From Tilletia caries (taxonomy: Eukaryota; Basidiomycota; Exobasidiomycetes; Tilletiales; Tilletiaceae), in assembly GCA_032718865.1 (NCBI GenBank), contig JALUTQ010000033.1:1234003-1298002 (forward strand): a stretch of DNA of 64,000 nt. The letters are read 5' to 3'. The notes beneath the pieces were generated by a model. That model had not been told where the DNA came from, did not search any database, and saw only the letters and a list, made by a program, of their open reading frames with translations. The position numbers were made by a program, and so were the translations under genes. Positions 36,791-64,000 of the stretch are shown here, piece after piece. The stretch's first letter is position 1. Each line of letters starts with the position of its first letter.

Positions 36791-36861
36791 AGGGTTAGGG
36801 TTAGGGTTAGGGTTAGGGTTAGGGTTAGGGTTAGGGTTAGGGTTAGGGTTAGGGTTAGGGT
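36791..36861 (+). repeat. Interstitial telomere repeat 1
   Basis: About twelve perfect TTAGGG units. It follows the broken Crypton gene and precedes the 3' end of retroelement copy 1. G-rich on the plus strand, the same orientation as the terminal telomere, so it marks a former chromosome end. Confidence 0.97.
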
Positions 36862-36922
36862 GAAAGTAAGAAGTGAAGTGACAACTTGAGGGAGACTTGA
36901 AGAGGAGTCGAGGATGGCGAGT

Positions 36923-36985
36923 AAGACGTGGCTACAGGTGCGCTTACTGTTTCGTCCTCAAACTGGACTCTTCAGGCGTCGTCTT
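36923..36985 (-). ncRNA. Hammerhead ribozyme, copy 1
   Basis: Minus strand core CUGAAGA at 36,975-36,969, stem II GUCC/GGAC with a 7-nt loop, then GAAA at 36,953-36,950. Stem III is ACAG/CUGU with a 9-nt loop. The cleavage-site residue is A at 36,933, and stem I closes with AAGACG/CGUCUU around an AC/CA internal loop. All invariant core bases are present. Self-cleavage would fall between 36,933 and 36,932. Confidence 0.9.
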
Positions 36986-37138
36986 TATACCTTTTTGGAT
37001 CCCCTACGGGGACTTCTCTGATTTCTGTTGGGCATCCCTGTCAAGGTGCGCTTTCTACGGGGTTCTACGATGTTCCGAAGACGCATCGCGCCCCAGAAAA
37101 CTAAGTGAACTTGTCCCAACAGAAGAAAGAAGGGTAAC

Positions 37139-37202
37139 TAATTTGGGGGAGTCCCTCAAATTTCGATGTGGCGTTGTGGCTTTGGGGTGGTGCCCCAAAT
37201 TA
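37139..37202. other. Perfect 10-bp inverted repeat in the element 3' region
   Basis: TAATTTGGGG at 37,139-37,148 pairs with CCCCAAATTA at 37,193-37,202, forming a hairpin with a 44-nt loop. Repeated in each copy. Possible protein or RT recognition structure; function inferred only. Confidence 0.5.
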
Positions 37203-37882
37203 AGTGCCCTCGGCCTTTGGATCGAAGTACCCTTTTTCTCAGAATGATCCGTATGACCTTTCATCTCAGTGTCAGCCGATGGGTCCTAGCTCCCTTTTCA
37301 GGGGGTTCTCATTCGAGTACTGACGTGGCAGTGCTGGGTCTTAATCAGGAGACCGACGGATAGCCGATTACCACAGCCAAATTTGGGGGTGTGGGGACCT
37401 CAACCAAATTGGGGGTCCTTCGGAGCTAAGTCGGTGATCTGTCATAAGTCTCAGGTAGCCGAGATGTGGGGATATAGGTCTCAGAGAGGTTTGTTTCTTC
37501 TTTTTTGTCTTTCTGTCTATGTCGATGGTCCCATATAGGATGGCGTCATCGTTCATTCTCCATTTGTAACTCTAAGTCATAAATGGATTCACAGAAAGTA
37601 CAAATCAGATTGTGTATGGCTTTCTAGTTACTAACCGGTGATCGCTCTTAGAACTGTCTTTGTACTAGACTAGTTAATCGAGACGATACTTCTCTATGTA
37701 TAAGGTGCTGGAACCTTATACTAGCCATCGGTGTTCTACTTTTTGAAAAATGTCAATTTTTTTGGCATTACTAGGCCTAAGCCGTTCCCTAAATAGGATA
37801 TACCCGTCTGACCGACCCACTAAGGGGACTGCGGGAAAATAATGCCAAAAAAATCGTCGAAAAAAATCGGCGAAAAATTGAC

Positions 37883-37954
37883 GACCATACGTGGATTCGA
37901 ACAAGGGACTTGGAGTGATACAGGAATCAAACTTCCTACCACTGGTCCATAGTC
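37883..37954 (-). ncRNA. tRNA-like segment, copy 1
   Basis: 72 nt with a 7-bp acceptor-like stem (GACUAUG with UAUGGUC, two G-U pairs), an A-box-like TGGACCAGTGG, an AGGAA/TTCCT arm with a 6-nt loop, and a B-box TTGTTCGAATCC. The T stem pairs poorly, so it is a degenerate or non-canonical tRNA. It lies 90 nt downstream of the RT stop in sense direction. Could act as an internal Pol III promoter or an RNase P/Z processing site. Confidence 0.5.
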
Positions 37955-38043
37955 CCCGCCGAATTTGTTAAACTACTTACCCTCAAGCACTCATATACTA
38001 CATTCCTACTAAGTTTATAGTATCCATATGGTACTTTCTTAAG

Positions 38044-41000
38044 TTAAGAGTTAACAATGTTATCCTTAAACCTTTCTATGGTCTCTTTGTTCTTACGGTT
38101 GAATAAGTCTCCTAGAGCGGGAGGTTTACTTTGGCTATGTATGACTCTAGTGTTAGTTGGAAGAAATTCTAGACTTTCCCAAGTCGTTAGAATAGCATCC
38201 CATACTGTCTTCATGTTAGTACCTTCCCATAAGGGATTATATGTACTCTTAAAGATGAGAGTTTCAACCTTGTCTTTCTCAGTTGGAGTACACTCTGTCT
38301 TCCCTGTTAAGGTGAATGCACGAGTGTTCTGATAATCGACCGTTAGGAAGACTTTGTTGAGGAACCCGTGAGGGTAACCTCGTGCACGCAGTCTAAGATA
38401 GAACTTTTTTTCCGTATCTCTAAGAAGCTGTTCAATTCTGAGCAGTTCCTTACATGTCGTAGCAGTTCAGCTTTTATCCATGCTTTCTTAACATGTAGTG
38501 GATGATACGAGGACCATGGTATATACTGGTATGCATTCATGGGCTTTTTGATATGTCTTTGTTAGGAGTTGAATGTTGTCTTTAACTTTAGCAGTTACGA
38601 CTTCAACATCTAAGAAGGTCATTGAGCTTTTTTTGAAACATTCCAGGTGAACTTAAAGTTACTATGCTCGCTTTCAAAGTTATCGATGAAGTTTTTGTGG
38701 AGAGTCTTTGTTGCCTCTGACTACCACAAAGATGTCATCAAGATACCTGCCATAGTACTTTATGTTCTGTCCCTGTCCCGAGTTAGTCTGAGATGTCCCA
38801 GTATACTCGGCTTCTGCCATAACCAAGTTGGCATACATGGGAGCACACGAGGTGCCCATGGCTGTGCCTTTAACTTGTAGGTAGTACTTTCCCATAAAGG
38901 TAAAGTAGTTATTACGAAGAATCTTTTTCTAGTAATTTTTAGTACTAGAGTTATGGTCTCTATAGGCAGAGAGGAGCGTTTAAGTATATTTGCCATGCAT
39001 TCTAGACCCCAGTCTGTAGGGATGCTAGGGTACATTGCTTCAACGTCTCCTGAAATCAGCCAGATGTCCTCTTCAGGGTCTGGAGATCCAATGGAAGTAT
39101 ATCTCATTGGCAGGGTTTGTAAGAAGGTAGTCGTGTCCTTAAGGATCCAAGGGTAGTCCTTGACTATGACCTTAAGTTTTTTTCTGCAACCCAGATTGAT
39201 GCATTCGTATAGAATGTATTAAAGCTAGGCACTATAGGTCTTCCTAGGACAGGACTCTTATGTACTTTAGGAAGTAACTTAAAGTAAGGAAGGGATGATT
39301 CTACATCGGATCTCACAAGTAGCCACTTACGTTCCTGAAGGGTCAAGGACCCTCCAAGTTTGTAAATGGTTTCCTTGATCCATCTTCTGTCATCTAACCA
39401 ATCTGGTTCTTCCACTTCCTTGTAAACTGCCTTGTCGGTCAGTTGTCTTAAGGCTTCTTTATAGTACCACTCGACCGGTACGATTGCCATACCCATATTC
39501 TTATCTGTAGGTAGAATTAGTAAGGACTCTTCTCTTAAGAAGATGTCCAGGGTCTTTATGGCATGGATCGGTGGGTTAGGCCGAGTGAGTTTCTTACTCA
39601 TTAAAGATTCTAAGATGGCATAGCCTTTGCTAATTCCTTTTTTTCAAATTTAGCATTGCCCTTAGGTGCTTCCGTGTTAGATACAATATGGAATTTAGGG
39701 TTAAATTCTTTCTTGTATTGATTCTTACGGTAAGCCCATTTCCATCTTAGTCTTCGAACGAAGTCCCCATATGAATTCTTCCAAAGTTCTTCCTTTGGGT
39801 TAGGAGTGGGAATGAATTTCATATTGTAAGAGATAATTCTCTGTACAGGGTGTGGGACCGGTGTCTTCGAAAGGTTATGGACTTGATCGTTGAAGGATCT
39901 TGAGTCGATATATTCCAGTGAGGAATGTCTTGCGAGGAACAGCGTTCGTTCTGAAAGGGAGGCAGTAAAGAATTCTACTGGGTAAGTACTTATCTTTGCT
40001 ATATCAAAGTTAGAAGGTACTGACCAGTTGCCCTTAGGGACTTTGGACTTGTTCTTTTTTTTGCCGGGGGGGCCTTAGACTTAGCCTTGGTCTTTTTGAA
40101 CCTTTAGCTTTTTTTGTTGTCTGGCTTCTTCCCTTTGTGGACACTCGATTTTTGCTTTACCTTTTTCCCTTGCCTTTGAATGGCTGGGCCGGTGCTTTGC
40201 TTTTTCGAAGTGCCTTTAGCGAGCGACTCCTTGACCAGTTCACCAACTGCTTGTTGCAGCGATTTACCTTTTTTTCTTGGAGTGCAAGCTGAGCTTCATA
40301 GGCTTTCTGTTGCTTAGATTCTTTAAATTCTTTTTTTCCTTAAGTGACTTGTTAGCCGCTTGAAGGTAAAGTTTATCGAGATCTTTAGCAAAGGTTGTCA
40401 TGAGGACCTCCACTTTACCTCTGACGAGGGGAATGTCTGATCCAACATGATCCTTCAGAGCCTCAGCTTTGGCTTCCAGTGCACTACGAAGGTTTAGGAG
40501 GAGGGCCTGAGTATTGCCCTCAATGACCAGCTGGTCGACTTCCGTCTTCCTAGCATCGATCAGAATGTTGAGGTAGAACCTCAAGCATTCTTCCTTCTTC
40601 TCAGCCATCCTTTCCTGAAGAGCTCGGAAAGCATCTGGGTTTGACTCCAAAGCTTCCTTACTAATCTGGAGAGGAGGAGAGTGCACTGTGCCTTTAATGG
40701 CAGGAGGGAAGTGGTCTGGGCCTAGGGCCTTTGCACGTTCCAACGCAGCCAAGTTTTTCCCTGGCCTTGAAGTATTTTGAATACACGGAGGACGCTCTTG
40801 CGAGGTGCTCTCTCGTGATATTCTCAAGGTCGGGCAGGCTCAGCTTAGCTGAAGCAGGTCCCGAGGGATACTGCTTGTCAGATACCTTGATGGTAGTCTG
40901 ACCGCCTGAGCCACCATGGAGTCCTTCGACGTCCATGGCCGTGCCAGATTGGTCACGTAGAGCTTGCGCTCCAGGCGTGGGGGGAGGGATGTGGGGGGGG

Positions 41001-41052
41001 GAAGGGAGAGGAGAGAGGAGTAGGAGAAGGGGGGGGGAACTACAGTACTCAT
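38044..41052 (-). CDS. Penelope-type reverse transcriptase, copy 1 (frame broken at homopolymers)
   Basis: Starts at ATG 41,052 (MSTVV) and ends at TAA 38,044-38,046 after IVNS, about 1,000 codons. An N-terminal domain of about 330 residues is charged and helical, with no known family, followed by a Lys-rich linker. RT motifs in order: LPTDKNMGMAIV, LPKVHKS with GRPIV, DVEAMYPSIP (motif A Asp), GTAMGTSCAPMYANLV (motif B), YYGRYLDDIFVV (motif C), FLDVEV, thumb YHPLHVKKAW, RGYPHGFLNK and PPALGDLF. No GIY-YIG domain follows. Breaks lie at T-runs (plus strand) 40,269, 40,109, 39,638, 39,177, 38,934, 38,628 and 38,405, each needing one extra base, and one near 38,700 that does not fit that rule. 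This copy also has an extra base in the run at about 40,754, which breaks the N-terminal domain. Confidence 0.85.
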
Positions 41053-41144
41053 CGTAAAAGGTGTTGTCGAGGTGGAGTAGGGTGAAAGTAAGAAGTGAAG
41101 TGACAACTTGAGGGAGACTTGAAGAGGAGTCGAGGATGGCGAGT

Positions 41145-41207
41145 AAGACGTGGCTACAGGTGCGCTTACTGTTTCGTCCTCAAACTGGACTCTTCAGGCG
41201 TCGTCTT
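41145..41207 (-). ncRNA. Hammerhead ribozyme, copy 2
   Basis: All core and stem bases as in copy 1. Its predicted cleavage site at 41,155 lies 103 nt before the RT start of copy 1, so it would set the 5' end of copy-1 RNA in a read-through transcript. Confidence 0.9.
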
Positions 41208-42109
41208 TATACCTTTTTGGATCCCCTACGGGGACTTCTCTGATTTCTGTTGGGCATCCCTGTCAAGGTGCGCTTTCTACGGGGTTCTACGATGTTCCGA
41301 AGACGCATCGCGCCCCAGAAAACTAAGTGAACTTGTCCCAACAGAAGAAAGAAGGGTAACTAATTTGGGGGAGTCCCTCAAATTTCGATGTGGCGTTGTG
41401 GCTTTGGGGTGGTGCCCCAAATTAAGTGCCCTCGGCCTTTGGATCGAAGTACCCTTTTTCTCAGAATGATCCGTATGACCTTTCATCTCAGTGTCAGCCG
41501 ATGGGTCCTAGCTCCCTTTTTCAGGGGGGGGGTTCTCATTCGAGTACTGACGTGGCAGTGCTGGGTCTTAATCAGGAGACCGACGGATAGCCGATTACCA
41601 CAGCCAAATTTGGGGGGGTGTGGGGACCTCAACCAAATTGGGGGGGTCCTTCGGAGCTAAGTCGGTGATCTGTCATAAGTCTCAGGTAGCCGAGATGTGG
41701 GGATATAGGTCTCAGAGAGGTTTGTTTCTTCTTTTTGTCTTTCTGTCTATGTCGATGGTCCCATATAGGATGGCGTCATCGTTCATTCTCCATTTGTAAC
41801 TCTAAGTCATAAATGGATTCACAGAAAGTACAAATCAGATTGTGTATGGCTTTCTAGTTACTAACCGGTGATCGCTCTTAGAACTGTCTTTGTACTAGAC
41901 TAGTTAATCGAGACGATACTTCTCTATGTATAAGGTGCTGGAACCTTATACTAGCCATCGGTGTTCTACTTTTTGAAAATGTCAATTTTTTTGGCATTAC
42001 TAGGCCTAAGCCGTTCCCTAAATAGGATATACCCGTCTGACCGACCCACTAAGGGGACTGCGGGAAAATAATGCCAAAAAAATCGTCGAAAAATCGGCGA
42101 AAAATTGAC

Positions 42110-42181
42110 GACCATACGTGGATTCGAACAAGGGACTTGGAGTGATACAGGAATCAAACTTCCTACCACTGGTCCATAGTC
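42110..42181 (-). ncRNA. tRNA-like segment, copy 2
   Basis: Identical to copy 1 over 72 nt. Confidence 0.5.
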
Positions 42182-42270
42182 CCCGCCGAATTTGTTAAAC
42201 TACTTACCCTCAAGCACTCATATACTACATTCCTACTAAGTTTATAGTATCCATATGGTACTTTCTTAAG

Positions 42271-45200
42271 TTAAGAGTTAACAATGTTATCCTTAAACCT
42301 TTCTATGGTCTCTTTGTTCTTACGGTTGAATAAGTCTCCTAGAGCGGGAGGTTTACTTTGGCTATGTATGACTCTAGTGTTAGTTGGAAGAAATTCTAGA
42401 CTTTCCCAAGTCGTTAGAATAGCATCCCATACTGTCTTCATGTTAGTACCTTCCCATAAGGGATTATATGTACTCTTAAAGATGAGAGTTTCAACCTTGT
42501 CTTTCTCAGTTGGAGTACACTCTGTCTTCCCTGTTAAGGTGAATGCACGAGTGTTCTGATAATCGACCGTTAGGAAGACTTTGTTGAGGAACCCGTGAGG
42601 GTAACCTCGTGCACGCAGTCTAAGATAGAACTTTTTTTCCGTATCTCTAAGAAGCTGTTCAATTCTGAGCAGTTCCTTACATGTCGTAGCAGTTCAGCTT
42701 TTATCCATGCTTTCTTAACATGTAGTGGATGATACGAGGACCATGGTATATACTGGTATGCATTCATGGGCTTTTTGATATGTCTTTGTTAGGAGTTGAA
42801 TGTTGTCTTTAACTTTAGCAGTTACGACTTCAACATCTAAGAAGGTCATTGAGCTTTTTTTGAAACATTCCAGGTGAACTTAAAGTTACTATGCTCGCTT
42901 TCAAAGTTATCGATGAAGTTTTTGTGGAGAGTCTTTGTTGCCTCTGACTACCACAAAGATGTCATCAAGATACCTGCCATAGTACTTTATGTTCTGTCCC
43001 TGTCCCGAGTTAGTCTGAGATGTCCCAGTATACTCGGCTTCTGCCATAACCAAGTTGGCATACATGGGAGCACACGAGGTGCCCATGGCTGTGCCTTTAA
43101 CTTGTAGGTAGTACTTTCCCATAAAGGTAAAGTAGTTATTACGAAGAATCTTTTTCTAGTAATTTTTAGTACTAGAGTTATGGTCTCTATAGGCAGAGAG
43201 GAGCGTTTAAGTATATTTGCCATGCATTCTAGACCCCAGTCTGTAGGGATGCTAGGGTACATTGCTTCAACGTCTCCTGAAATCAGCCAGATGTCCTCTT
43301 CAGGGTCTGGAGATCCAATGGAAGTATATCTCATTGGCAGGGTTTGTAAGAAGGTAGTCGTGTCCTTAAGGATCCAAGGGTAGTCCTTGACTATGACCTT
43401 AAGTTTTTTTCTGCAACCCAGATTGATGCATTCGTATAGAATGTATTAAAGCTAGGCACTATAGGTCTTCCTAGGACAGGACTCTTATGTACTTTAGGAA
43501 GTAACTTAAAGTAAGGAAGGGATGATTCTACATCGGATCTCACAAGTAGCCACTTACGTTCCTGAAGGGTCAAGGACCCTCCAAGTTTGTAAATGGTTTC
43601 CTTGATCCATCTTCTGTCATCTAACCAATCTGGTTCTTCCACTTCCTTGTAAACTGCCTTGTCGGTCAGTTGTCTTAAGGCTTCTTTATAGTACCACTCG
43701 ACCGGTACGATTGCCATACCCATATTCTTATCTGTAGGTAGAATTAGTAAGGACTCTTCTCTTAAGAAGATGTCCAGGGTCTTTATGGCATGGATCGGTG
43801 GGTTAGGCCGAGTGAGTTTCTTACTCATTAAAGATTCTAAGATGGCATAGCCTTTGCTAATTCCTTTTTTTCAAATTTAGCATTGCCCTTAGGTGCTTCC
43901 GTGTTAGATACAATATGGAATTTAGGGTTAAATTCTTTCTTGTATTGATTCTTACGGTAAGCCCATTTCCATCTTAGTCTTCGAACGAAGTCCCCATATG
44001 AATTCTTCCAAAGTTCTTCCTTTGGGTTAGGAGTGGGAATGAATTTCATATTGTAAGAGATAATTCTCTGTACAGGGTGTGGGACCGGTGTCTTCGAAAG
44101 GTTATGGACTTGATCGTTGAAGGATCTTGAGTCGATATATTCCAGTGAGGAATGTCTTGCGAGGAACAGCGTTCGTTCTGAAAGGGAGGCAGTAAAGAAT
44201 TCTACTGGGTAAGTACTTATCTTTGCTATATCAAAGTTAGAAGGTACTGACCAGTTGCCCTTAGGGACTTTGGACTTGTTCTTTTTTTGCCGGGGGGGCC
44301 TTAGACTTAGCCTTGGTCTTTTGAACCTTTAGCTTTTTTTGTTGTCTGGCTTCTTCCCTTTGTGGACACTCGATTTTGCTTTACCTTTTTCCCTTGCCTT
44401 TGAATGGCTGGGCCGGTGCTTTGCTTTTCGAAGTGCCTTTAGCGAGCGACTCCTTGACCAGTTCACCAACTGCTTGTTGCAGCGATTTACCTTTTTTTCT
44501 TGGAGTGCAAGCTGAGCTTCATAGGCTTTCTGTTGCTTAGATTCTTTAAATTCTTTTTTTCCTTAAGTGACTTGTTAGCCGCTTGAAGGTAAAGTTTATC
44601 GAGATCTTTAGCAAAGGTTGTCATGAGGACCTCCACTTTACCTCTGACGAGGGGAATGTCTGATCCAACATGATCCTTCAGAGCCTCAGCTTTGGCTTCC
44701 AGTGCACTACGAAGGTTTAGGAGGAGGGCCTGAGTATTGCCCTCAATGACCAGCTGGTCGACTTCCGTCTTCCTAGCATCGATCAGAATGTTGAGGTAGA
44801 ACCTCAAGCATTCTTCCTTCTTCTCAGCCATCCTTTCCTGAAGAGCTCGGAAAGCATCTGGGTTTGACTCCAAAGCTTCCTTACTAATCTGGAGAGGAGG
44901 AGAGTGCACTGTGCCTTTAATGGCAGGAGGGAAGTGGTCTGGGCCTAGGGCCTTTGCACGTTCCAACGCAGCCAAGTTTTCCCTGGCCTTGAAGTATTTT
45001 TGAATACACGGAGGACGCTCTTGCGAGGTGCTCTCTCGTGATATTCTCAAGGTCGGGCAGGCTCAGCTTAGCTGAAGCAGGTCCCGAGGGATACTGCTTG
45101 TCAGATACCTTGATGGTAGTCTGACCGCCTGAGCCACCATGGAGTCCTTCGACGTCCATGGCCGTGCCAGATTGGTCACGTAGAGCTTGCGCTCCAGGCG

Positions 45201-45274
45201 TGGGGGGGAGGGATGTGGGGGGGGGAAGGGAGAGGAGAGAGGAGTAGGAGAAGGGGGGGAACTACAGTACTCAT
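42271..45274 (-). CDS. Penelope-type reverse transcriptase, copy 2 (frame broken)
   Basis: Same architecture as copy 1. The run at about 44,977 has one T fewer than copy 1, so the N-terminal domain stays open as far as AREN, but the next run (about 44,997) has one more and breaks the frame just upstream. RT motifs are unchanged. Confidence 0.85.
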
Positions 45275-45366
45275 CGTAAAAGGTGTTGTCGAGGTGGAGT
45301 AGGGTGAAAGTAAGAAGTGAAGTGACAACTTGAGGGAGACTTGAAGAGGAGTCGAGGATGGCGAGT

Positions 45367-45429
45367 AAGACGTGGCTACAGGTGCGCTTACTGTTTCGTC
45401 CTCAAACTGGACTCTTCAGGCGTCGTCTT
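45367..45429 (-). ncRNA. Hammerhead ribozyme, copy 3
   Basis: Complete. Lies in a truncated element, so it could still cut transcripts entering copy 2. Confidence 0.9.
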
Positions 45430-46330
45430 TATACCTTTTTGGATCCCCTACGGGGACTTCTCTGATTTCTGTTGGGCATCCCTGTCAAGGTGCGCTTTCT
45501 ACGGGGTTCTACGATGTTCCGAAGACGCATCGCGCCCCAGAAAACTAAGTGAACTTGTCCCAACAGAAGAAAGAAGGGTAACTAATTTGGGGGAGTCCCT
45601 CAAATTTCGATGTGGCGTTGTGGCTTTGGGGTGGTGCCCCAAATTAAGTGCCCTCGGCCTTTGGATCGAAGTACCCTTTTTCTCAGAATGATCCGTATGA
45701 CCTTTCATCTCAGTGTCAGCCGATGGGTCCTAGCTCCCTTTTTCAGGGGGGGTTCTCATTCGAGTACTGACGTGGCAGTGCTGGGTCTTAATCAGGAGAC
45801 CGACGGATAGCCGATTACCACAGCCAAATTTGGGGGGGTGTGGGGACCTCAACCAAATTGGGGGGGTCCTTCGGAGCTAAGTCGGTGATCTGTCATAAGT
45901 CTCAGGTAGCCGAGATGTGGGGATATAGGTCTCAGAGAGGTTTGTTTCTTCTTTTTTGTCTTTCTGTCTATGTCGATGGTCCCATATAGGATGGCGTCAT
46001 CGTTCATTCTCCATTTGTAACTCTAAGTCATAAATGGATTCACAGAAAGTACAAATCAGATTGTGTATGGCTTTCTAGTTACTAACCGGTGATCGCTCTT
46101 AGAACTGTCTTTGTACTAGACTAGTTAATCGAGACGATACTTCTCTATGTATAAGGTGCTGGAACCTTATACTAGCCATCGGTGTTCTACTTTTTGAAAA
46201 TGTCAATTTTTTTGGCATTACTAGGCCTAAGCCGTTCCCTAAATAGGATATACCCGTCTGACCGACCCACTAAGGGGACTGCGGGAAAATAATGCCAAAA
46301 AATCGTCGAAAAAATCGGCGAAAAATTGAC

Positions 46331-46402
46331 GACCATACGTGGATTCGAACAAGGGACTTGGAGTGATACAGGAATCAAACTTCCTACCACTGGTCCATAG
46401 TC
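46331..46402 (-). ncRNA. tRNA-like segment, copy 3
   Basis: Same 72 nt as copies 1 and 2. Confidence 0.5.
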
Positions 46403-46491
46403 CCCGCCGAATTTGTTAAACTACTTACCCTCAAGCACTCATATACTACATTCCTACTAAGTTTATAGTATCCATATGGTACTTTCTTAAG

Positions 46492-46696: not shown

Positions 46697-46756
46697 AAAG
46701 TAAGAAGTGAAGTGACAACTTGAGGGAGACTTGAAGAGGAGTCGAGGATGGCGAGT

Positions 46757-52113: not shown

Positions 52114-55100
52114 TTAAGAGTTAACAATGTTATCCTTAAACCTTTCTATGGTCTCTTTGTTCTTACGGTTGAATAAGTCTCCTAGAGCGGGAGGTTTACT
52201 TTGGCTATGTATGACTCTAGTGTTAGTTGGAAGAAATTCTAGACTTTCCCAAGTCGTTAGAATAGCATCCCATACTGTCTTCATGTTAGTACCTTCCCAT
52301 AAGGGATTATATGTACTCTTAAAGATGAGAGTTTCAACCTTGTCTTTCTCAGTTGGAGTACACTCTGTCTTCCCTGTTAAGGTGAATGCACGAGTGTTCT
52401 GATAATCGACCGTTAGGAAGACTTTGTTGAGGAACCCGTGAGGGTAACCTCGTGCACGCAGTCTAAGATAGAACTTTTTTTCCGTATCTCTAAGAAGCTG
52501 TTCAATTCTGAGCAGTTCCTTACATGTCGTAGCAGTTCAGCTTTTTATCCATGCTTTCTTAACATGTAGTGGATGATACGAGGACCATGGTATATACTGG
52601 TATGCATTCATGGGCTTTTTGATATGTTTTTTTGTTAGGAGTTGAATGTTGTCTTTAACTTTAGCAGTTACGACTTCAACATCTAAGAAGGTCATTGAGC
52701 TTTTTTTGAAACATTCCAGGTGAACTTAAAGTTACTATGCTCGCTTTCAAAGTTATCGATGAAGTTTTTGTGGAGAGTCTTTGTTGCCTCTGACTACCAC
52801 AAAGATGTCATCAAGATACCTGCCATAGTACTTTATGTTCTGTCCCTGTCCCGAGTTAGTCTGAGATGTCCCAGTATACTCGGCTTCTGCCATAACCAAG
52901 TTGGCATACATGGGAGCACACGAGGTGCCCATGGCTGTGCCTTTAACTTGTAGGTAGTACTTTCCCATAAAGGTAAAGTAGTTATTACGAAGAATCTTTT
53001 TCTAGTAATTTTTAGTACTAGAGTTATGGTCTCTATAGGCAGAGAGGAGCGTTTAAGTATATTTGCCATGCATTCTAGACCCCAGTCTGTAGGGATGCTA
53101 GGGTACATTGCTTCAACGTCTCCTGAAATCAGCCAGATGTCCTCTTCAGGGTCTGGAGATCCAATGGAAGTATATCTCATTGGCAGGGTTTGTAAGAAGG
53201 TAGTCGTGTCCTTAAGGATCCAAGGGTAGTCCTTGACTATGACCTTAAGTTTTTTTCTGCAACCCAGATTGATGCATTCGTATAGAATGTATTAAAGCTA
53301 GGCACTATAGGTCTTCCTAGGACAGGACTCTTATGTACTTTAGGAAGTAACTTAAAGTAAGGAAGGGATGATTCTACATCGGATCTCACAAGTAGCCACT
53401 TACGTTCCTGAAGGGTCAAGGACCCTCCAAGTTTGTAAATGGTTTCCTTGATCCATCTTCTGTCATCTAACCAATCTGGTTCTTCCACTTCCTTGTAAAC
53501 TGCCTTGTCGGTCAGTTGTCTTAAGGCTTCTTTATAGTACCACTCGACCGGTACGATTGCCATACCCATATTCTTATCTGTAGGTAGAATTAGTAAGGAC
53601 TCTTCTCTTAAGAAGATGTCCAGGGTCTTTATGGCATGTATCGGTGGGTTAGGCCGAGTGAGTTTCTTACTCATTAAAGATTCTAAGATGGCATAGCCTT
53701 TGCTAATTCCTTTTTTTCAAATTTAGCATTGCCCTTAGGTGCTTCCGTGTTAGATACAATATGGAATTTAGGGTTAAATTCTTTCTTGTATTGATTCTTA
53801 CGGTAAGCCCATTTCCATCTTAGTCTTCGAACGAAGTCCCCATATGAATTCTTCCAAAGTTCTTCCTTTGGGTTAGGAGTGGGAATGAATTTCATATTGT
53901 AAGAGATAATTCTCTGTACAGGGTGTGGGACCGGTGTCTTCGAAAGGTTATGGACTTGATCGTTGAAGGATCTTGAGTCGATATATTCCAGTGAGGAATG
54001 TCTTGCGAGGAACAGCGTTCGTTCTGAAAGGGAGGCAGTAAAGAATTCCACTGGGTAAGTACTTATCTTTGCTATATCAAAGTTAGAAGGTACTGACCAG
54101 TTGCCCTTAGGGACTTTGGACTTGTTCTTTTTTTGCCGGGGGGGCCTTAGACTTAGCCTTGGTCTTTTGAACCTTTAGCTTTTTTGTTGTCTGGCTTCTT
54201 CCCTTTGTGGACACTCGATTTTTGCTTTACCTTTTTCCCTTGCCTTTGAATGGCTGGGCCGGTGCTTTGCTTTTTCGAAGTGCCTTTAGCGAGCGACTCC
54301 TTGACCAGTTCACCAACTGCTTGTTGCAGCGATTTACCTTTTTTTCTTGGAGTGCAAGCTGAGCTTCATAGGCTTTCTGTTGCTTAGATTCTTTAAATTC
54401 TTTTTTTCCTTAAGTGACTTGTTAGCCGCTTGAAGGTAAAGTTTATCGAGATCTTTAGCAAAGGTTGTCATGAGGACCTCCACTTTACCTCTGACGAGGG
54501 GAATGTCTGATCCAACATGATCCTTCAGAGCCTCAGCTTTGGCTTCCAGTGCACTACGAAGGTTTAGGAGGAGGGCCTGAGTATTGCCCTCAATGACCAG
54601 CTGGTCGACTTCCGTCTTCCTAGCATCGATCAGAATGTTGAGGTAGAACCTCAAGCATTCTTCCTTCTTCTCAGCCATCCTTTCCTGAAGAGTTTGGAAA
54701 GCATCTGGGTTTGACTCCAAAGCTTCCTTACTAATCTGGAGAGGAGGAGAGTGCACTGTGCCTTTAATGGCAGGAGGGAAGTGGTCTGGGCCTAGGGCCT
54801 TTGCACGTTCCAACGCAGCCAAGTTTTTCCCTGGCCTTGAAGTATTTTTGAATACACGGAGGACGCTCTTGCGAGGTGCTCTCTCGTGATATTCTCAAGG
54901 TCGGGCAGGCTCAGCTTAGCTGAAGCAGGTCCCGAGGGATACTGCTTGTCAGATACCTTGATGGTAGTCTGACCGCCTGAGCCACCATGGAGTCCTTCGA
55001 CGTCCATGGCCGTGCCAGATTGGTCACGTAGAGCTTGCGCTCCAGGCGTGGGGGGGAGGGATGTGGGGGGGGGAAGGGAGAGGAGAGAGGAGTAGGAGAA

Positions 55101-55122
55101 GGGGGGGAACTACAGTACTCAT
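52114..55122 (-). CDS. Penelope-type reverse transcriptase, copy 5 (frame broken)
   Basis: Frame breaks as in the other copies. The run near 54,179 is 6 T instead of 7, and the two runs near 54,825 and 54,843 are both long, so the N-terminal domain is split twice. The insertion TTTTTTT near 52,626 replaces TCTTTG of the inner copies. Confidence 0.85.
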
Positions 55123-55214
55123 CGTAAAAGGTGTTGTCGAGGTGGAGTAGGGTGAAAGTAAGAAGTGAAGTGACAACTTGAGGGAGACTTGAAGAGGAGT
55201 CGAGGATGGCGAGT

Positions 55215-55277
55215 AAGACGTGGCTACAGGTGCGCTTACTGTTTCGTCCTCAAACTGGACTCTTCAGGCGTCGTCTT
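55215..55277 (-). ncRNA. Hammerhead ribozyme, copy 6
   Basis: Complete; upstream (sense) of the copy-5 RT start. Confidence 0.9.
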
Positions 55278-56188
55278 TATACCTTTTTGGATCCCCTACG
55301 GGGACTTCTCTGATTTCTGTTGGGCATCCCTGTCAAGGTGCGCTTTCTACGGGGTTCTACGATGTTCCGAAGACGCATCGCGCCCCAGAAAACTAAGTGA
55401 ACTTGTCCCAACAGAAGAAAGAAGGGTAACTAATTTGGGGGGGAGTCCCTCAAATTTCGATGTGGCGTTGTGGCTTTGGGGTGGTGCCCCAAATTAAGTG
55501 CCCTCGGCCTTTGGATCGAAGTACCCTTTTTTTCTCAGAATGATCCGTATGACCTTTCATCTCGGTGTCAGCCGATGGGTCCTAGCTCCCTTTTTCAGGG
55601 GGGGTTCTCATTCGAGTACTGACGTGGCAGTGCTGGGTCTTAATCAGGAGACCGACGGATAGCCGATTACCACAGCCAAATTTGGGGGGGTGTGGGGACC
55701 TCAACCAAATTGGGGGGGTCTTTCGGGGCTAAGTCGGTGATCTGTCATAAGTCTCAGGTAGCCGAGATGTGGGGATATAGGTCTCAGAGAGGTTTGTTTC
55801 TTCTTTTTTTGTCTTTCTGTCTATGTCGATGGTCCCATATAGGATGGCGTCATCGTTCATTCTCCATTTGTAACTCTAAGTCATAAATGGATTCACAGAA
55901 AGTACAAATCAGATTGTGTATGGCTTTCTAGTTACTAACCGGTGATCGCTCTTAGAGCTGTCTTTGTACTAGACTAGTTAATCGAGACGATACTTCTCTA
56001 TGTATAAGGTGCTGGAACCTTATACTAGCCATCGGTGTTCTACTTTTTGAAAATGTCAATTTTTTTGGCATTACTAGGCCTAAGCCGTTCCCTAAATAGG
56101 ATATACCCGTCTGACCGACCCACTAAGGGGACTGCGGGAAAATAATGCCAAAAAAATCGTCGAAAAAAATCGGCGAAAAAAAATTGAC

Positions 56189-56260
56189 GACCATACGCGG
56201 ATTCGAACAAGGGACTTGGAGTGATACAGGAATCAAACTTCCTACCACTGGTCCATAGTC
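56189..56260 (-). ncRNA. tRNA-like segment, copy 6
   Basis: Same as copy 4. Confidence 0.5.
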
Positions 56261-56349
56261 CCCGCCGAATTTGTTAAACTACTTACCCTCAAGCACTCAT
56301 ATACTACATTCCTACTAAGTTTATAGTATCCATATGGTACTTTCTTAAG

Positions 56350-59300
56350 TTAAGAGTTAACAATGTTATCCTTAAACCTTTCTATGGTCTCTTTGTTCTT
56401 ACGGTTGAATAAGTCTCCTAGAGCGGGAGGTTTACTTTGGCTATGTATGACTCTAGTGTTAGTTGGAAGAAATTCTAGACTTTCCCAAGTCGTTAGAATA
56501 GCATCCCATACTGTCTTCATGTTAGTACCTTCCCATAAGGGATTATATGTACTCTTAAAGATGAGAGTTTCAACCTTGTCTTTCTCAGTTGGAGTACACT
56601 CTGTCTTCCCTGTTAAGGTGAATGCACGAGTGTTCTGATAATCGACCGTTAGGAAGACTTTGTTGAGGAACCCGTGAGGGTAACCTCGTGCACGCAGTCT
56701 AAGATAGAACTTTTTTTCCGTATCTCTAAGAAGCTGTTCAATTCTGAGCAGTTCCTTACATGTCGTAGCAGTTCAGCTTTTATCCATGCTTTCTTAACAT
56801 GTAGTGGATGATACGAGGACCATGGTATATACTGGTATGCATTCATGGGCTTTTTGATATGTTTTTTTGTTAGGAGTTGAATGTTGTCTTTAACTTTAGC
56901 AGTTACGACTTCAACATCTAAGAAGGTCATTGAGCTTTTTTTGAAACATTCCAGGTGAACTTAAAGTTACTATGCTCGCTTTCAAAGTTATCGATGAAGT
57001 TTTTGTGGAGAGTCTTTGTTGCCTCTGACTACCACAAAGATGTCATCAAGATACCTGCCATAGTACTTTATGTTCTGTCCCTGTCCCGAGTTAGTCTGAG
57101 ATGTCCCAGTATACTCGGCTTCTGCCATAACCAAGTTGGCATACATGGGAGCACACGAGGTGCCCATGGCTGTGCCTTTAACTTGTAGGTAGTACTTTCC
57201 CATAAAGGTAAAGTAGTTATTACGAAGAATCTTTTTCTAGTAATTTTTAGTACTAGAGTTATGGTCTCTATAGGCAGAGAGGAGCGTTTAAGTATATTTG
57301 CCATGCATTCTAGACCCCAGTCTGTAGGGATGCTAGGGTACATTGCTTCAACGTCTCCTGAAATCAGCCAGATGTCCTCTTCAGGGTCTGGAGATCCAAT
57401 GGAAGTATATCTCATTGGCAGGGTTTGTAAGAAGGTAGTCGTGTCCTTAAGGATCCAAGGGTAGTCCTTGACTATGACCTTAAGTTTTTTTCTGCAACCC
57501 AGATTGATGCATTCGTATAGAATGTATTAAAGCTAGGCACTATAGGTCTTCCTAGGACAGGACTCTTATGTACTTTAGGAAGTAACTTAAAGTAAGGAAG
57601 GGATGATTCTACATCGGATCTCACAAGTAGCCACTTACGTTCCTGAAGGGTCAAGGACCCTCCAAGTTTGTAAATGGTTTCCTTGATCCATCTTCTGTCA
57701 TCTAACCAATCTGGTTCTTCCACTTCCTTGTAAACTGCCTTGTCGGTCAGTTGTCTTAAGGCTTCTTTATAGTACCACTCGACCGGTACGATTGCCATAC
57801 CCATATTCTTATCTGTAGGTAGAATTAGTAAGGACTCTTCTCTTAAGAAGATGTCCAGGGTCTTTATGGCATGTATCGGTGGGTTAGGCCGAGTGAGTTT
57901 CTTACTCATTAAAGATTCTAAGATGGCATAGCCTTTGCTAATTCCTTTTTTTCAAATTTAGCATTGCCCTTAGGTGCTTCCGTGTTAGATACAATATGGA
58001 ATTTAGGGTTAAATTCTTTCTTGTATTGATTCTTACGGTAAGCCCATTTCCATCTTAGTCTTCGAACGAAGTCCCCATATGAATTCTTCCAAAGTTCTTC
58101 CTTTGGGTTAGGAGTGGGAATGAATTTCATATTGTAAGAGATAATTCTCTGTACAGGGTGTGGGACCGGTGTCTTCGAAAGGTTATGGACTTGATCGTTG
58201 AAGGATCTTGAGTCGATATATTCCAGTGAGGAATGTCTTGCGAGGAACAGCGTTCGTTCTGAAAGGGAGGCAGTAAAGAATTCCACTGGGTAAGTACTTA
58301 TCTTTGCTATATCAAAGTTAGAAGGTACTGACCAGTTGCCCTTAGGGACTTTGGACTTGTTCTTTTTTTGCCGGGGGGGCCTTAGACTTAGCCTTGGTCT
58401 TTTTGAACCTTTAGCTTTTTTTGTTGTCTGGCTTCTTCCCTTTGTGGACACTCGATTTTTGCTTTACCTTTTCCCTTGCCTTTGAATGGCTGGGCCGGTG
58501 CTTTGCTTTTTCGAAGTGCCTTTAGCGAGCGACTCCTTGACCAGTTCACCAACTGCTTGTTGCAGCGATTTACCTTTTTTTCTTGGAGTGCAAGCTGAGC
58601 TTCATAGGCTTTCTGTTGCTTAGATTCTTTAAATTCTTTTTTTCCTTAAGTGACTTGTTAGCCGCTTGAAGGTAAAGTTTATCGAGATCTTTAGCAAAGG
58701 TTGTCATGAGGACCTCCACTTTACCTCTGACGAGGGGAATGTCTGATCCAACATGATCCTTCAGAGCCTCAGCTTTGGCTTCCAGTGCACTACGAAGGTT
58801 TAGGAGGAGGGCCTGAGTATTGCCCTCAATGACCAGCTGGTCGACTTCCGTCTTCCTAGCATCGATCAGAATGTTGAGGTAGAACCTCAAGCATTCTTCC
58901 TTCTTCTCAGCCATCCTTTCCTGAAGAGTTTGGAAAGCATCTGGGTTTGACTCCAAAGCTTCCTTACTAATCTGGAGAGGAGGAGAGTGCACTGTGCCTT
59001 TAATGGCAGGAGGGAAGTGGTCTGGGCCTAGGGCCTTTGCACGTTCCAACGCAGCCAAGTTTTTCCCTGGCCTTGAAGTATTTTGAATACACGGAGGACG
59101 CTCTTGCGAGGTGCTCTCTCGTGATATTCTCAAGGTCGGGCAGGCTCAGCTTAGCTGAAGCAGGTCCCGAGGGATACTGCTTGTCAGATACCTTGATGGT
59201 AGTCTGACCGCCTGAGCCACCATGGAGTCCTTCGACGTCCATGGCCGTGCCAGATTGGTCACGTAGAGCTTGCGCTCCAGGCGTGGGGGGGAGGGATGTG

Positions 59301-59355
59301 GGGGGGAAGGGAGAGGAGAGAGGAGTAGGAGAAGGGGGGGAACTACAGTACTCAT
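56350..59355 (-). CDS. Penelope-type reverse transcriptase, copy 6 (frame broken)
   Basis: This copy keeps the Lys-rich linker in frame with the conserved block before the RT (58,451-57,918). It also keeps FLDVEV in frame with the thumb YIPWSSYHPLHVKK (56,930-56,649), so it shows two joins that are broken in copy 1. Remaining breaks are at the shared 7-base runs. Confidence 0.85.
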
Positions 59356-59447
59356 CGTAAAAGGTGTTGTCGAGGTGGAGTAGGGTGAAAGTAAGAAGTG
59401 AAGTGACAACTTGAGGGAGACTTGAAGAGGAGTCGAGGATGGCGAGT

Positions 59448-59510
59448 AAGACGTGGCTACAGGTGCGCTTACTGTTTCGTCCTCAAACTGGACTCTTCAG
59501 GCGTCGTCTT
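59448..59510 (-). ncRNA. Hammerhead ribozyme, copy 7
   Basis: Complete; upstream (sense) of the copy-6 RT start. Confidence 0.9.
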
Positions 59511-60415
59511 TATACCTTTTTGGATCCCCTACGGGGACTTCTCTGATTTCTGTTGGGCATCCCTGTCAAGGTGCGCTTTCTACGGGGTTCTACGATGTTC
59601 CGAAGACGCATCGCGCCCCAGAAAACTAAGTGAACTTGTCCCAACAGAAGAAAGAAGGGTAACTAATTTGGGGGAGTCCCTCAAATTTCGATGTGGCGTT
59701 GTGGCTTTGGGGTGGTGCCCCAAATTAAGTGCCCTCGGCCTTTGGATCGAAGTACCCTTTTTCTCAGAATGATCCGTATGACCTTTCATCTCGGTGTCAG
59801 CCGATGGGTCCTAGCTCCCTTTTTCAGGGGGGGTTCTCATTCGAGTACTGACGTGGCAGTGCTGGGTCTTAATCAGGAGACCGACGGATAGCCGATTACC
59901 ACAGCCAAATTTGGGGGGGTGTGGGGACCTCAACCAAATTGGGGGGGTCTTTCGGGGCTAAGTCGGTGATCTGTCATAAGTCTCAGGTAGCCGAGATGTG
60001 GGGATATAGGTCTCAGAGAGGTTTGTTTCTTCTTTTTTTGTCTTTCTGTCTATGTCGATGGTCCCATATAGGATGGCGTCATCGTTCATTCTCCATTTGT
60101 AACTCTAAGTCATAAATGGATTCACAGAAAGTACAAATCAGATTGTGTATGGCTTTCTAGTTACTAACCGGTGATCGCTCTTAGAGCTGTCTTTGTACTA
60201 GACTAGTTAATCGAGACGATACTTCTCTATGTATAAGGTGCTGGAACCTTATACTAGCCATCGGTGTTCTACTTTTTGAAAATGTCAATTTTTTTGGCAT
60301 TACTAGGCCTAAGCCGTTCCCTAAATAGGATATACCCGTCTGACCGACCCACTAAGGGGACTGCGGGAAAATAATGCCAAAAATCGTCGAAAAAAATCGG
60401 CGAAAAAAAATTGAC

Positions 60416-60487
60416 GACCATACGCGGATTCGAACAAGGGACTTGGAGTGATACAGGAATCAAACTTCCTACCACTGGTCCATAGTC
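60416..60487 (-). ncRNA. tRNA-like segment, copy 7
   Basis: Same as copy 4. Confidence 0.5.
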
Positions 60488-60576
60488 CCCGCCGAATTTG
60501 TTAAACTACTTACCCTCAAGCACTCATATACTACATTCCTACTAAGTTTATAGTATCCATATGGTACTTTCTTAAG

Positions 60577-63500
60577 TTAAGAGTTAACAATGTTATCCTT
60601 AAACCTTTCTATGGTCTCTTTGTTCTTACGGTTGAATAAGTCTCCTAGAGCGGGAGGTTTACTTTGGCTATGTATGACTCTAGTGTTAGTTGGAAGAAAT
60701 TCTAGACTTTCCCAAGTCGTTAGAATAGCATCCCATACTGTCTTCATGTTAGTACCTTCCCATAAGGGATTATATGTACTCTTAAAGATGAGAGTTTCAA
60801 CCTTGTCTTTCTCAGTTGGAGTACACTCTGTCTTCCCTGTTAAGGTGAATGCACGAGTGTTCTGATAATCGACCGTTAGGAAGACTTTGTTGAGGAACCC
60901 GTGAGGGTAACCTCGTGCACGCAGTCTAAGATAGAACTTTTTTTCCGTATCTCTAAGAAGCTGTTCAATTCTGAGCAGTTCCTTACATGTCGTAGCAGTT
61001 CAGCTTTTTATCCATGCTTTCTTAACATGTAGTGGATGATACGAGGACCATGGTATATACTGGTATGCATTCATGGGCTTTTTGATATGTTTTTTTGTTA
61101 GGAGTTGAATGTTGTCTTTAACTTTAGCAGTTACGACTTCAACATCTAAGAAGGTCATTGAGCTTTTTTTGAAACATTCCAGGTGAACTTAAAGTTACTA
61201 TGCTCGCTTTCAAAGTTATCGATGAAGTTTTTGTGGAGAGTCTTTGTTGCCTCTGACTACCACAAAGATGTCATCAAGATACCTGCCATAGTACTTTATG
61301 TTCTGTCCCTGTCCCGAGTTAGTCTGAGATGTCCCAGTATACTCGGCTTCTGCCATAACCAAGTTGGCATACATGGGAGCACACGAGGTGCCCATGGCTG
61401 TGCCTTTAACTTGTAGGTAGTACTTTCCCATAAAGGTAAAGTAGTTATTACGAAGAATCTTTTTCTAGTAATTTTTAGTACTAGAGTTATGGTCTCTATA
61501 GGCAGAGAGGAGCGTTTAAGTATATTTGCCATGCATTCTAGACCCCAGTCTGTAGGGATGCTAGGGTACATTGCTTCAACGTCTCCTGAAATCAGCCAGA
61601 TGTCCTCTTCAGGGTCTGGAGATCCAATGGAAGTATATCTCATTGGCAGGGTTTGTAAGAAGGTAGTCGTGTCCTTAAGGATCCAAGGGTAGTCCTTGAC
61701 TATGACCTTAAGTTTTTTTCTGCAACCCAGATTGATGCATTCGTATAGAATGTATTAAAGCTAGGCACTATAGGTCTTCCTAGGACAGGACTCTTATGTA
61801 CTTTAGGAAGTAACTTAAAGTAAGGAAGGGATGATTCTACATCGGATCTCACAAGTAGCCACTTACGTTCCTGAAGGGTCAAGGACCCTCCAAGTTTGTA
61901 AATGGTTTCCTTGATCCATCTTCTGTCATCTAACCAATCTGGTTCTTCCACTTCCTTGTAAACTGCCTTGTCGGTCAGTTGTCTTAAGGCTTCTTTATAG
62001 TACCACTCGACCGGTACGATTGCCATACCCATATTCTTATCTGTAGGTAGAATTAGTAAGGACTCTTCTCTTAAGAAGATGTCCAGGGTCTTTATGGCAT
62101 GTATCGGTGGGTTAGGCCGAGTGAGTTTCTTACTCATTAAAGATTCTAAGATGGCATAGCCTTTGCTAATTCCTTTTTTTCAAATTTAGCATTGCCCTTA
62201 GGTGCTTCCGTGTTAGATACAATATGGAATTTAGGGTTAAATTCTTTCTTGTATTGATTCTTACGGTAAGCCCATTTCCATCTTAGTCTTCGAACGAAGT
62301 CCCCATATGAATTCTTCCAAAGTTCTTCCTTTGGGTTAGGAGTGGGAATGAATTTCATATTGTAAGAGATAATTCTCTGTACAGGGTGTGGGACCGGTGT
62401 CTTCGAAAGGTTATGGACTTGATCGTTGAAGGATCTTGAGTCGATATATTCCAGTGAGGAATGTCTTGCGAGGAACAGCGTTCGTTCTGAAAGGGAGGCA
62501 GTAAAGAATTCCACTGGGTAAGTACTTATCTTTGCTATATCAAAGTTAGAAGGTACTGACCAGTTGCCCTTAGGGACTTTGGACTTGTTCTTTTTTTGCC
62601 GGGGGGGCCTTAGACTTAGCCTTGGTCTTTTGAACCTTTAGCTTTTTTTGTTGTCTGGCTTCTTCCCTTTGTGGACACTCGATTTTTGCTTTACCTTTTC
62701 CCTTGCCTTTGAATGGCTGGGCCGGTGCTTTGCTTTTCGAAGTGCCTTTAGCGAGCGACTCCTTGACCAGTTCACCAACTGCTTGTTGCAGCGATTTACC
62801 TTTTTTTCTTGGAGTGCAAGCTGAGCTTCATAGGCTTTCTGTTGCTTAGATTCTTTAAATTCTTTTTTTCCTTAAGTGACTTGTTAGCCGCTTGAAGGTA
62901 AAGTTTATCGAGATCTTTAGCAAAGGTTGTCATGAGGACCTCCACTTTACCTCTGACGAGGGGAATGTCTGATCCAACATGATCCTTCAGAGCCTCAGCT
63001 TTGGCTTCCAGTGCACTACGAAGGTTTAGGAGGAGGGCCTGAGTATTGCCCTCAATGACCAGCTGGTCGACTTCCGTCTTCCTAGCATCGATCAGAATGT
63101 TGAGGTAGAACCTCAAGCATTCTTCCTTCTTCTCAGCCATCCTTTCCTGAAGAGTTTGGAAAGCATCTGGGTTTGACTCCAAAGCTTCCTTACTAATCTG
63201 GAGAGGAGGAGAGTGCACTGTGCCTTTAATGGCAGGAGGGAAGTGGTCTGGGCCTAGGGCCTTTGCACGTTCCAACGCAGCCAAGTTTTCCCTGGCCTTG
63301 AAGTATTTTTGAATACACGGAGGACGCTCTTGCGAGGTGCTCTCTCGTGATATTCTCAAGGTCGGGCAGGCTCAGCTTAGCTGAAGCAGGTCCCGAGGGA
63401 TACTGCTTGTCAGATACCTTGATGGTAGTCTGACCGCCTGAGCCACCATGGAGTCCTTCGACGTCCATGGCCGTGCCAGATTGGTCACGTAGAGCTTGCG

Positions 63501-63585
63501 CTCCAGGCGTGGGGGGGAGGGATGTGGGGGGGGGAAGGGAGAGGAGAGAGGAGTAGGAGAAGGGGGGGGGAACTACAGTACTCAT
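60577..63585 (-). CDS. Penelope-type reverse transcriptase, copy 7 (frame broken)
   Basis: As copy 5, with the AREN segment in the intact form but an extra T in the run near 63,303. All RT motifs present. Confidence 0.85.
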
Positions 63586-63616
63586 CGTAAAAGGTGTTGT
63601 CGAGGTGGAGTAGGGT

Positions 63617-63884
63617 GAAAGTAAGAAGTGAAGTGACAACTTGAGGGAGACTTGAAGAGGAGTCGAGGATGGCGAGTAAGACGTGGCTACAGGTGCGCTT
63701 ACTGTTTCGTCCTCAAACTGGACTCTTCAGGCGTCGTCTTTATACCTTTTGGATCCCCTACGGGGACTTCTCTGATTTCTGTTGGGCATCCCTGTCAAGG
63801 TGCGCTTTCTACGGGGTTCTACGATGTTCCGAAGACGCATCGCGCCCCAGAAAACTAAGTGAACTTGTCCCAACAGAAGAAAGA
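63617..63884 (-). mobile_element. Telomeric Penelope-like element, copy 8 (severely 5'-truncated)
   Basis: Only the last 268 bases of the 3' end, which still include the whole ribozyme. Matching stops at AGAAAGA, where the parent continues AGGGTAAC. The telomere begins GGGTTAGGG, so the cap started at a GGGT in the parent. Confidence 0.93.
63678..63740 (-). ncRNA. Hammerhead ribozyme, copy 8
   Basis: Complete. It is 145 bases from the terminal telomere, upstream (sense) of the copy-7 RT start. Any transcript entering from the telomere would meet it first. Confidence 0.9.
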
Positions 63885-64000
63885 GGGTTAGGGTTAGGGT
63901 TAGGGGTTAGGGTTAGGGTTAGGTTAGGGTTAGGGTTAGGGTTAGGGTTAGGGTTAGGGTTAGGGTTAGGGTTAGGGTTAGGGTTAGGGTTAGGGTTAGG
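63885..64000 (+). repeat. Terminal telomere (TTAGGG)n
   Basis: 116 bases of TTAGGG to the window edge with two variants near the start (TTAGGGG, GGTTAGG). G-rich strand is plus, so this is the right end of the chromosome. Confidence 0.98.

Follow-up and report, generated by a model that had tools for sequence, protein, structure and literature searches.

Head-to-tail arrays of an endonuclease-deficient Penelope-like element at chromosome ends of Tilletia caries

We analyzed a 64,000-nucleotide stretch of the Tilletia caries genome (the window), whose right edge falls exactly at the terminus of a contig of 1,298,002 bases (C28). Our results support the identification of the repeat that fills its distal part as a chromosome-end Penelope-like element (PLE) that is endonuclease-deficient and encodes a telomerase-related reverse transcriptase (RT). 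Telomerase and the reverse transcriptases of PLEs are closely related. To our knowledge, the way in which nuclease-free PLEs begin and finish their copies has been little tested. New here are the presence, in all eight window copies, of a hammerhead motif followed 70 nt downstream by CACCCUA, a near-constant register of the junctions with telomere repeats, and a single type of joint between copies. Taken together, the 79 exact 3' ends, the near-constant register, the one joint type and the fixed distance of the ribozyme motif lead to simple predictions on the RT start site and the template RNA, and the junctions preserved in stacked copies probably record how copying works.

Layout of the array at the contig end

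The array occupies positions 36,791 to 64,000 of the window and had initially been annotated as eight copies of a 4.2-kb element in one orientation, with telomere caps inside. Unit size and the single orientation (minus strand) hold, and the eight copies of one PLE are now resolved into six of full length (4.22 kb) and two that are 5'-truncated. They form two blocks with TTAGGG repeats between them and as a cap; telomeric sequence thus lies inside the array, in the window as exactly one internal tract. At the inner edge, a seed of about 12 TTAGGG repeats (36791..36861, plus strand) rests on a Crypton/Ndc10-like gene (34178..36790, minus strand), which we presume to be linked to Crypton, with a Pfam NDC10_II match (2e-32) in 34178-35206. 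This gene has seven near-identical copies elsewhere in the assembly, and the one on contig C3 runs on into other sequence at the point where the window copy is cut by telomere at 36790, which bears out its description as a broken gene.

The first block comprises unit 1 (36860..41077, full length; telomere junction at the 3' end TTAGGGTG/AAAG), unit 2 (41082..45299, full length) and unit 3 (45304..46599, 5'-truncated at unit position 1291), all on the minus strand. The internal TTAGGG tract (about 46605..46697, plus strand) is both its cap and the seed of the second block, which has four full-length units and a stub, also on the minus strand: unit 4 (46697..50914; 3' junction TTAGGGTT/AAAG), unit 5 (50919..55147), unit 6 (55152..59380), unit 7 (59385..63610) and unit 8 (63615..63888), of which only the 3'-terminal 276 nt are present (5'-truncated about position 271-276). 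A terminal TTAGGG cap (63884..64000, plus strand) closes the contig. The first head-to-tail joint reads GTGGAG/TAGG/GTGAAAG (41078..41081, plus strand), and further joints lie on the same strand at 45300-45303, 50915-50918, 55148-55151, 59381-59384 and 63611-63614. The second to sixth full-length copies are 99.1-99.5% identical to unit 1, and three consecutive units at this contig end have no substitutions between them. A single misassembly does not account for the array, because a search of the other chromosome ends, as the initial annotation had proposed, found arrays of the same type and of differing structure on many contig ends. No conflicts were seen between sequence stretches, all of which stem from one assembly, so that this confirms the coordinates only.

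Reverse transcriptase and hammerhead motif

The coding region of unit 1 (38044..41052, minus strand; ATG at 41052, stop at 38044) has broken frames, and because the fixed places at which right-end copies break are spanned by longer frames at left contig ends, we read the frameshifts as most likely homopolymer errors. The RT motifs noted initially are present on the minus strand, with DVEAMYPSIP of unit 1 within 38760-39218, and the RT matches Pfam RVT_1 (1.5e-9). The frames scanned (N-terminal, RT and C-terminal) gave no Pfam match to GIY-YIG at E<=1, and no accessory domains were found in the scanned frames of the 4.22-kb unit. In addition, the stop following ...NIVNS recurs in all seven window copies that reach that point, in agreement with the claim that no GIY-YIG domain follows the RT.

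The search for RT homologs yielded 149 proteins, and GIY-YIG, as in canonical PLEs, is found on 5 of the 120 listed. In a tree of 116 proteins plus the query, from which listed homologs shorter than 400 aa were left out, the query falls into a supported fungal clade of 33 rows; the 32 others have no annotated PF01541, and, among the homologs listed, the five with PF01541 fall outside this clade. Named fungal kin among the homologs listed include Puccinia, Microbotryum, Rhodotorula, Pyricularia and Pochonia; no homolog listed bore the name Coprina or Athena. Moreover, the predicted fold of the closest long relative (64%), obtained with an alignment of 47 sequences, has TERT as its nearest match, and a PDB sequence search gave a weak RT match only (E 0.25). 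Placement in a Penelope-like phylogeny, in a fungal clade without GIY-YIG, together with the fold, the empty GIY-YIG scan, the position and the orientation, upholds the initial view of an endonuclease-less PLE at chromosome ends.

A type I hammerhead ribozyme motif is predicted in all window copies by descriptor match (8/8), in unit 1 at 36923..36985 and in the other units at 41145-41207, 45367-45429, 46757-46819, 50982-51044, 55215-55277, 59448-59510 and 63678-63740 (minus strand), and its exact core occurs at 73 places. From the predicted cut, the C of CACCC, which is part of the telomere-complementary CACCCUA, lies 70 nt downstream. The minimum-energy fold contains stems I and II but is no more stable than shuffled sequences (z -0.62), and a search of the array with Rfam did not recognise the motif. 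RNA ending at the ribozyme cut was set aside as the main template because one of the inspected truncation points (about 73-75, at the left end of contig C5) coincides with the predicted cut and other short copies end at 62, 80, 87 and 89.

By eye, a tRNA-like or hairpin segment can also be discerned in the 3' UTR of unit 1 (37890..37958, minus strand). ARAGORN and Rfam searches of the array did not call it or give a convincing match; exact copies lie at 42117-42185 and 46338-46406, and the fold has a z of -1.9.

Junctions and truncations across the assembly

An unconstrained 25-mer located 79 exact PLE 3' ends in the whole assembly, on 26 contig ends and none internal. This probe was chosen for the total because the junction pattern presupposes a register; four ends missed by the register-bound pattern were inspected individually. 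Internal copies, which the initial annotation had regarded as counter-evidence, are absent among these 79. The copies are restricted to chromosome ends, with junctions to telomere repeats, 5' truncations and new caps. Among telomere-joined exact 3' ends, 52 of 53 share one register of the telomere repeat, the exception being C27:1287309; two diverged copies outside the 79 are also off register (C30L about 23273 and C21R 1144710).

All 26 exact full-length 5' ends continue through a TAGGG joint into another copy (23 exact, 3 variants), and none leads directly into telomere. A unit comprising positions 1-1131 at the left end of C5 is attached through a joint, not telomere. No TT joint was present among 24 exact joints, with a search pattern that would have listed [AGT]TAGGGTT. 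Most inspected blocks have individual truncation points and haplotypes. Three ends (C27R, C36R and C7L) share a truncation point, 3610, and C40R carries an 859-nt copy twice in succession, which suggests hot spots or a measure of copying at the DNA level. For the 32 junctions that the script could place, mean overlap was slightly above simulation (1.03 vs 0.74), with six negative values. Neighbouring units differ in 11 of 17 pairs, and adjacent units are more alike than units from different blocks; this test used manually entered haplotype strings of 28 selected units, and three of the 17 pairs share only 1-3 sites.

The initial annotation had also suggested a possible contribution of the array to the maintenance of chromosome ends. 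Such a role is not supported, because a telomerase gene is present in the assembly, the blocks carry new TTAGGG caps, and no copy was seen at four of the 14 telomere-capped contig ends (C1R, C7R, C21L and C36L), where neither an exact 3' end nor, in the last 150 bases, the element was present; at C1R these bases are entirely telomere. At C22L, the copy at a cap is supported by about 20 bases.

Possible mode of copying and related elements

We consider it fairly probable that the arrays stem from an active or recently active endonuclease-deficient telomeric PLE that is primed by the overhang, templated by an array transcript, read through the joints and recapped by telomerase. The exposed 3' G-overhang of the chromosome end (..TAGGG) would prime the RT by pairing with the C-rich stretch ..CUUUCACCCUA, 70 nt downstream of the hammerhead motif, or, for a donor copy located on telomere repeats, with CUUUAACCCUAA. 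The template would most likely be an array transcript (unit-joint-unit-..), and therefore the pairing site may be internal to the RNA. The RT would copy successive units through TAGGG joints and halt at a variable point, where telomerase, the putative healer, would add a fresh TTAGGG cap that could seed the next round. At the sequence level, the model draws on position, orientation, junctions, truncations, the joint, the ribozyme motif, the lack of a GIY-YIG match and the telomerase gene. Counting against it are the hammerhead's lack of an Rfam match and of a fold more stable than shuffles, the off-register copies, the recurrent truncations and the small excess in junction overlap. Since a telomere-pairing site would lie beside the ribozyme motif at every joint, any array transcript might be primable at any joint. 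We therefore tentatively raise the possibility, about which we are doubtful, that the propagating unit is the array and not the element, with ends set by the primer and whole arrays swapped between chromosome ends via RNA. If so, the system would resemble a telomerase with its template region inside a 4-kb gene, copied processively into the next unit, and element 'ends' would be fixed by the primer, not by RNA ends.

Alternatively, single copies might be laid down by target-primed reverse transcription and the tandem arrays built through DNA-level recombination among chromosome ends, either break-induced replication or unequal exchange, as in other subtelomeric repeats. The greater similarity of adjacent units, the three successive window-end units without substitutions, the shared 3610 truncation and the duplicated 859-nt copy would all fit. 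However, one original joint would have to have spread to every full-length end, most inspected blocks differ in truncation point and haplotype, and recombination by itself does not explain the absence of telomere-capped full-length 5' ends; we consider this route unlikely. The TAGGGTG joint is also predicted if the RT jumps from the 5' end of one single-unit RNA to the 3' end (..CACCCUA) of another and copies that end, which would let neighbours differ as they commonly do. Jumping would then have to be near-certain (26/26), and telomere-tailed RNAs, if they are the source of TT telomere junctions, should yield the TT joints that are missing among the exact joints, so that this seems a rather improbable course. 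As for a hammerhead-cut, ligated circular RNA copied repeatedly round, as in retrozymes, the motif in all eight window units and the block with four complete units and a stub are compatible with it, and unit boundaries would not need to equal RNA ends. A monomer circle gives identical units, yet most neighbouring pairs differ, and according to published work on anole the main substrate was unprocessed RNA (PMC11167929); a circular template is thus highly improbable, and the monomer circle was set aside because neighbouring units differ.

Like PLEs generally, the element has a PLE-type RT, tandem or partial-tandem units (pseudo-LTR organisation) and a hammerhead motif. With Athena of bdelloid rotifers, Coprina and other fungal, protist and plant members it shares the PLE RT, the lack of GIY-YIG and the location at chromosome ends; the comparison with Coprina follows the initial annotation, the likeness being drawn by description and not by named sequences. 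Unlike this type, the present element has a single-hexamer joint through which full-length 5' ends lead into the following copy. Papers on endonuclease-deficient telomeric PLEs describe telomere repeats adjoining truncated 5' ends (PMC3846280) and a short run of telomere sequence at the 3' end (PMC5537684), as here. Because hammerheads are known in PLEs, with motifs in all available sequences according to a review (PMC6155905), and because Terminons share the hammerhead, the complementary 3' end and the arrays, we regard the element as a well-resolved further member of a known group. In these giant rotifer telomeric PLEs (PMC6431247), the hammerhead lies just before the telomere-complementary 3' stretch, and head-to-tail or interspersed arrays have telomere-capped 5' truncations; however, Terminons can attain 40 kb, carry accessory genes and pair through (ACACCC)n/(TCACCC)n, whereas the Tilletia element has 4.2 kb, one coding region and CACCCUA against TTAGGG. 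Poseidon/Penelope elements (anole PAc) share tandem units, the hammerhead and an RT start inside the RNA, in PAc at an AC-rich stretch 85-92 nt past the ribozyme cut (by subtraction from PMC11167929), compared with 70 nt here. They carry a GIY-YIG nuclease and their start sites are non-homologous to the target, in contrast to the nuclease-free element with its putative, telomere-complementary start site. PLEs of a mushroom, Agaricus bisporus, are likewise associated with chromosome ends (PMC7473861).

Element array and its distribution over contig ends

The window runs up to the right end of contig C28, in an assembly of 38.1 Mb and 40 contigs. From 36,791, the first block of the array contains a TTAGGG seed, two full 4.22-kb units of the Penelope-like element (PLE) and a third unit cut at position 1291; after a TTAGGG spacer of about 90 bp, the second block consists of four full units and a 0.27-kb stub, followed by the terminal TTAGGG cap. 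The array described in the initial annotation as eight 4.2-kb copies is real, but only six copies (2 + 4) are full length, the third unit and the stub being truncated. On the left, the array is flanked by a Crypton/Ndc10-like gene (Pfam NDC10_II, 2e-32), of which there are seven other near-identical copies. Because the C3 copy runs on into different sequence where the window copy meets the telomere, the sequence records chromosome breakage in this gene, then TTAGGG healing and later addition of the elements. Four near-identical copies of the gene, spaced about 6 kb, lie at C25 1074-21568.

Across the whole assembly, 79 matches to the exact 3'-terminal 25-mer of the element are spread over 26 contig ends, with none at an internal site (0/79), which bears out the initial proposal of a telomeric element. 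By script, the 75 of 79 3' ends matching the junction pattern share one orientation and are no further than 27.1 kb from the nearest contig end; positions of the four outside this pattern were read from the 25-mer list. A protein search gave 81 matching stretches, every one near contig ends by eye. Among the 14 contig ends reaching a TTAGGG cap, nine have an element directly abutting it (for C22L, judged on about 20 bases only; L and R denote left and right ends), C28L carries a short copy nearby, and C1R, C7R, C21L and C36L show no element (4/14). C3L and C19L, which end in N bases, were left out of this judgement.

Two arrays include, in their outer part, diverged copies that contain stops and have 45-72% protein identity (C21R 1146605-1151316 and C35R about 1547025). 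By eye, the C27R array adjoins a helicase-like frame (L046), perhaps a subtelomeric RecQ-type helicase gene. In addition, C12R, C27R, C30R, C39L and C40R terminate in versions of a single sequence, at most about 60 nt long and shortened on C27R, that resembles leftover Oxford Nanopore barcode adapter, and C9L, C23L and C28L carry about 20 non-telomeric bases beyond the terminal TTAGGG tract, possibly read artefacts.

Reverse transcriptase and hammerhead motif

The longest intact open frame of the element (531 aa, on C30) matches RVT_1 (Pfam) and 149 homologues, the best long homologue among the matches listed having 64% identity over 99% and 816 aa. Since left-end copies open up to 531 aa and right-end copies break at fixed places, the window frameshifts are most likely homopolymer errors. 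A quick tree placed the element in a supported 33-row clade (SH-aLRT 97) together with proteins from Puccinia, Microbotryum, Rhodotorula, Pyricularia and Pochonia; among the homologues listed, none of the five GIY-YIG rows falls in it, in agreement with its first description as endonuclease-less. For the 64% relative, structure prediction (mean pLDDT 82) gave a model whose best match is TERT. The genome also contains a telomerase RNA-binding domain gene, whose best named kin are from mushrooms, e.g. Trametes and Tulasnella; on this evidence the host is a basidiomycete and probably belongs to the agaricomycetes.

A type I hammerhead motif, complete in all eight window copies, lies on the RNA strand 70 nt before CACCC; it consists of a CUGAAGA core, stem II GUCC/GGAC, GAAA, stem III ACAG/CUGU and stem I AAGACG/CGUCUU, with a predicted cut after GUA. 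A structural descriptor matched 8/8 window copies, with no match in the other 36.8 kb of the window or in 3000 resampled units. Matches to an exact 34-nt core number 73 in the genome, all at contig ends by eye. A diverged C35 copy keeps stem III via a G-U pair and has lost one stem I pair, and a decayed C21 copy has an altered core. Two results count against the predicted ribozyme motif: Rfam did not recognise it even at E 10, and its free-energy z-score is -0.62. The 3' UTR also contains a tRNA-like segment at 37890-37958 (minus strand), repeated exactly at 42117-42185 and 46338-46406. It has words resembling A and B boxes, and its fold is a long hairpin (z -1.9); ARAGORN and Rfam made no call on it.

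Junctions, truncations and the probable source of the arrays

The 79 exact 3' ends comprise 26 head-to-tail joints, short TAGGG links from the full-length 5' end of one copy to the 3' end of the next, and 53 telomere-joined ends. Exact GTAGGGTG meeting AAAG was found at 24/26 joints, the two variants being at C34 and C35. At telomere junctions, AAAG is preceded by TTAGGGTT in 39/53 and by TTAGGGTG in 12/53; because these and C30:11681 (common register, short G run) agree and C27:1287309 alone is off register, 52 of the 53 fall in one of six possible registers. The common register is also missed by two diverged copies that are not among the 79 (C30L near 23273 and C21R 1144710).

Assembly-wide, 23 of the 26 exact full-length 5' ends are followed by the exact joint, the other three (C34, C35, C21) by small joint variants, and none directly by telomere (0/26). 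Truncated 5' ends lie at varied positions with TTAGGG immediately after. Truncation and repeat overlap by at least 3 nt at 8 of 32 truncated ends versus 6% in simulation, with only a slight rise in mean overlap (1.03 versus 0.74 simulated). Truncation point 3610 recurs at three contig ends with differing haplotypes, and C40R has two consecutive 859-nt copies; both were counted as evidence for hot spots or for some copying at the DNA level.

Outside homopolymers, 13 sites vary in at least two compared units, in mosaic combinations. Site agreement is 84% for neighbours across a joint versus 64% for units of different blocks, and identical pairs number 6/17 among neighbours versus 30/354; neighbouring units thus have more in common than units drawn at random from a pool. 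A single-unit circle as the general block template is very unlikely, since neighbours mostly differ. The arrays are best explained by transcripts of pre-existing arrays as the source, or by copying of DNA between ends.

Precedents and proposed mechanism

A review describes hammerhead motifs as a general feature of PLEs (PMC6155905). According to another, rotifer telomeric PLEs form head-to-tail arrays with 5' truncation by telomere repeats and have a hammerhead with a telomere-complementary stretch after it (PMC6431247). PLEs have also been reported at mushroom telomeres (PMC7473861), and a 2024 study demonstrated that reverse transcription starts internally near a hammerhead in one tandem PLE RNA (PMC11167929). 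Listings of open-licence papers gave no description of a fungal telomeric PLE with this TAGGG joint and register. The element is therefore new and unusually well recorded, in an already known class, and its chief value is for testing how PLE enzymes start.

Given the observed position, orientation, register, joint and truncations, we propose that arrays would be transcribed and that the chromosome G-overhang would pair with CACCCUA or with a telomere tail in the transcript; copying would then continue through joints and stop at a variable point, and telomerase would cap the new end. Either two RNA tails or the state of the overhang end may account for the TT and TG forms of the telomere junction.
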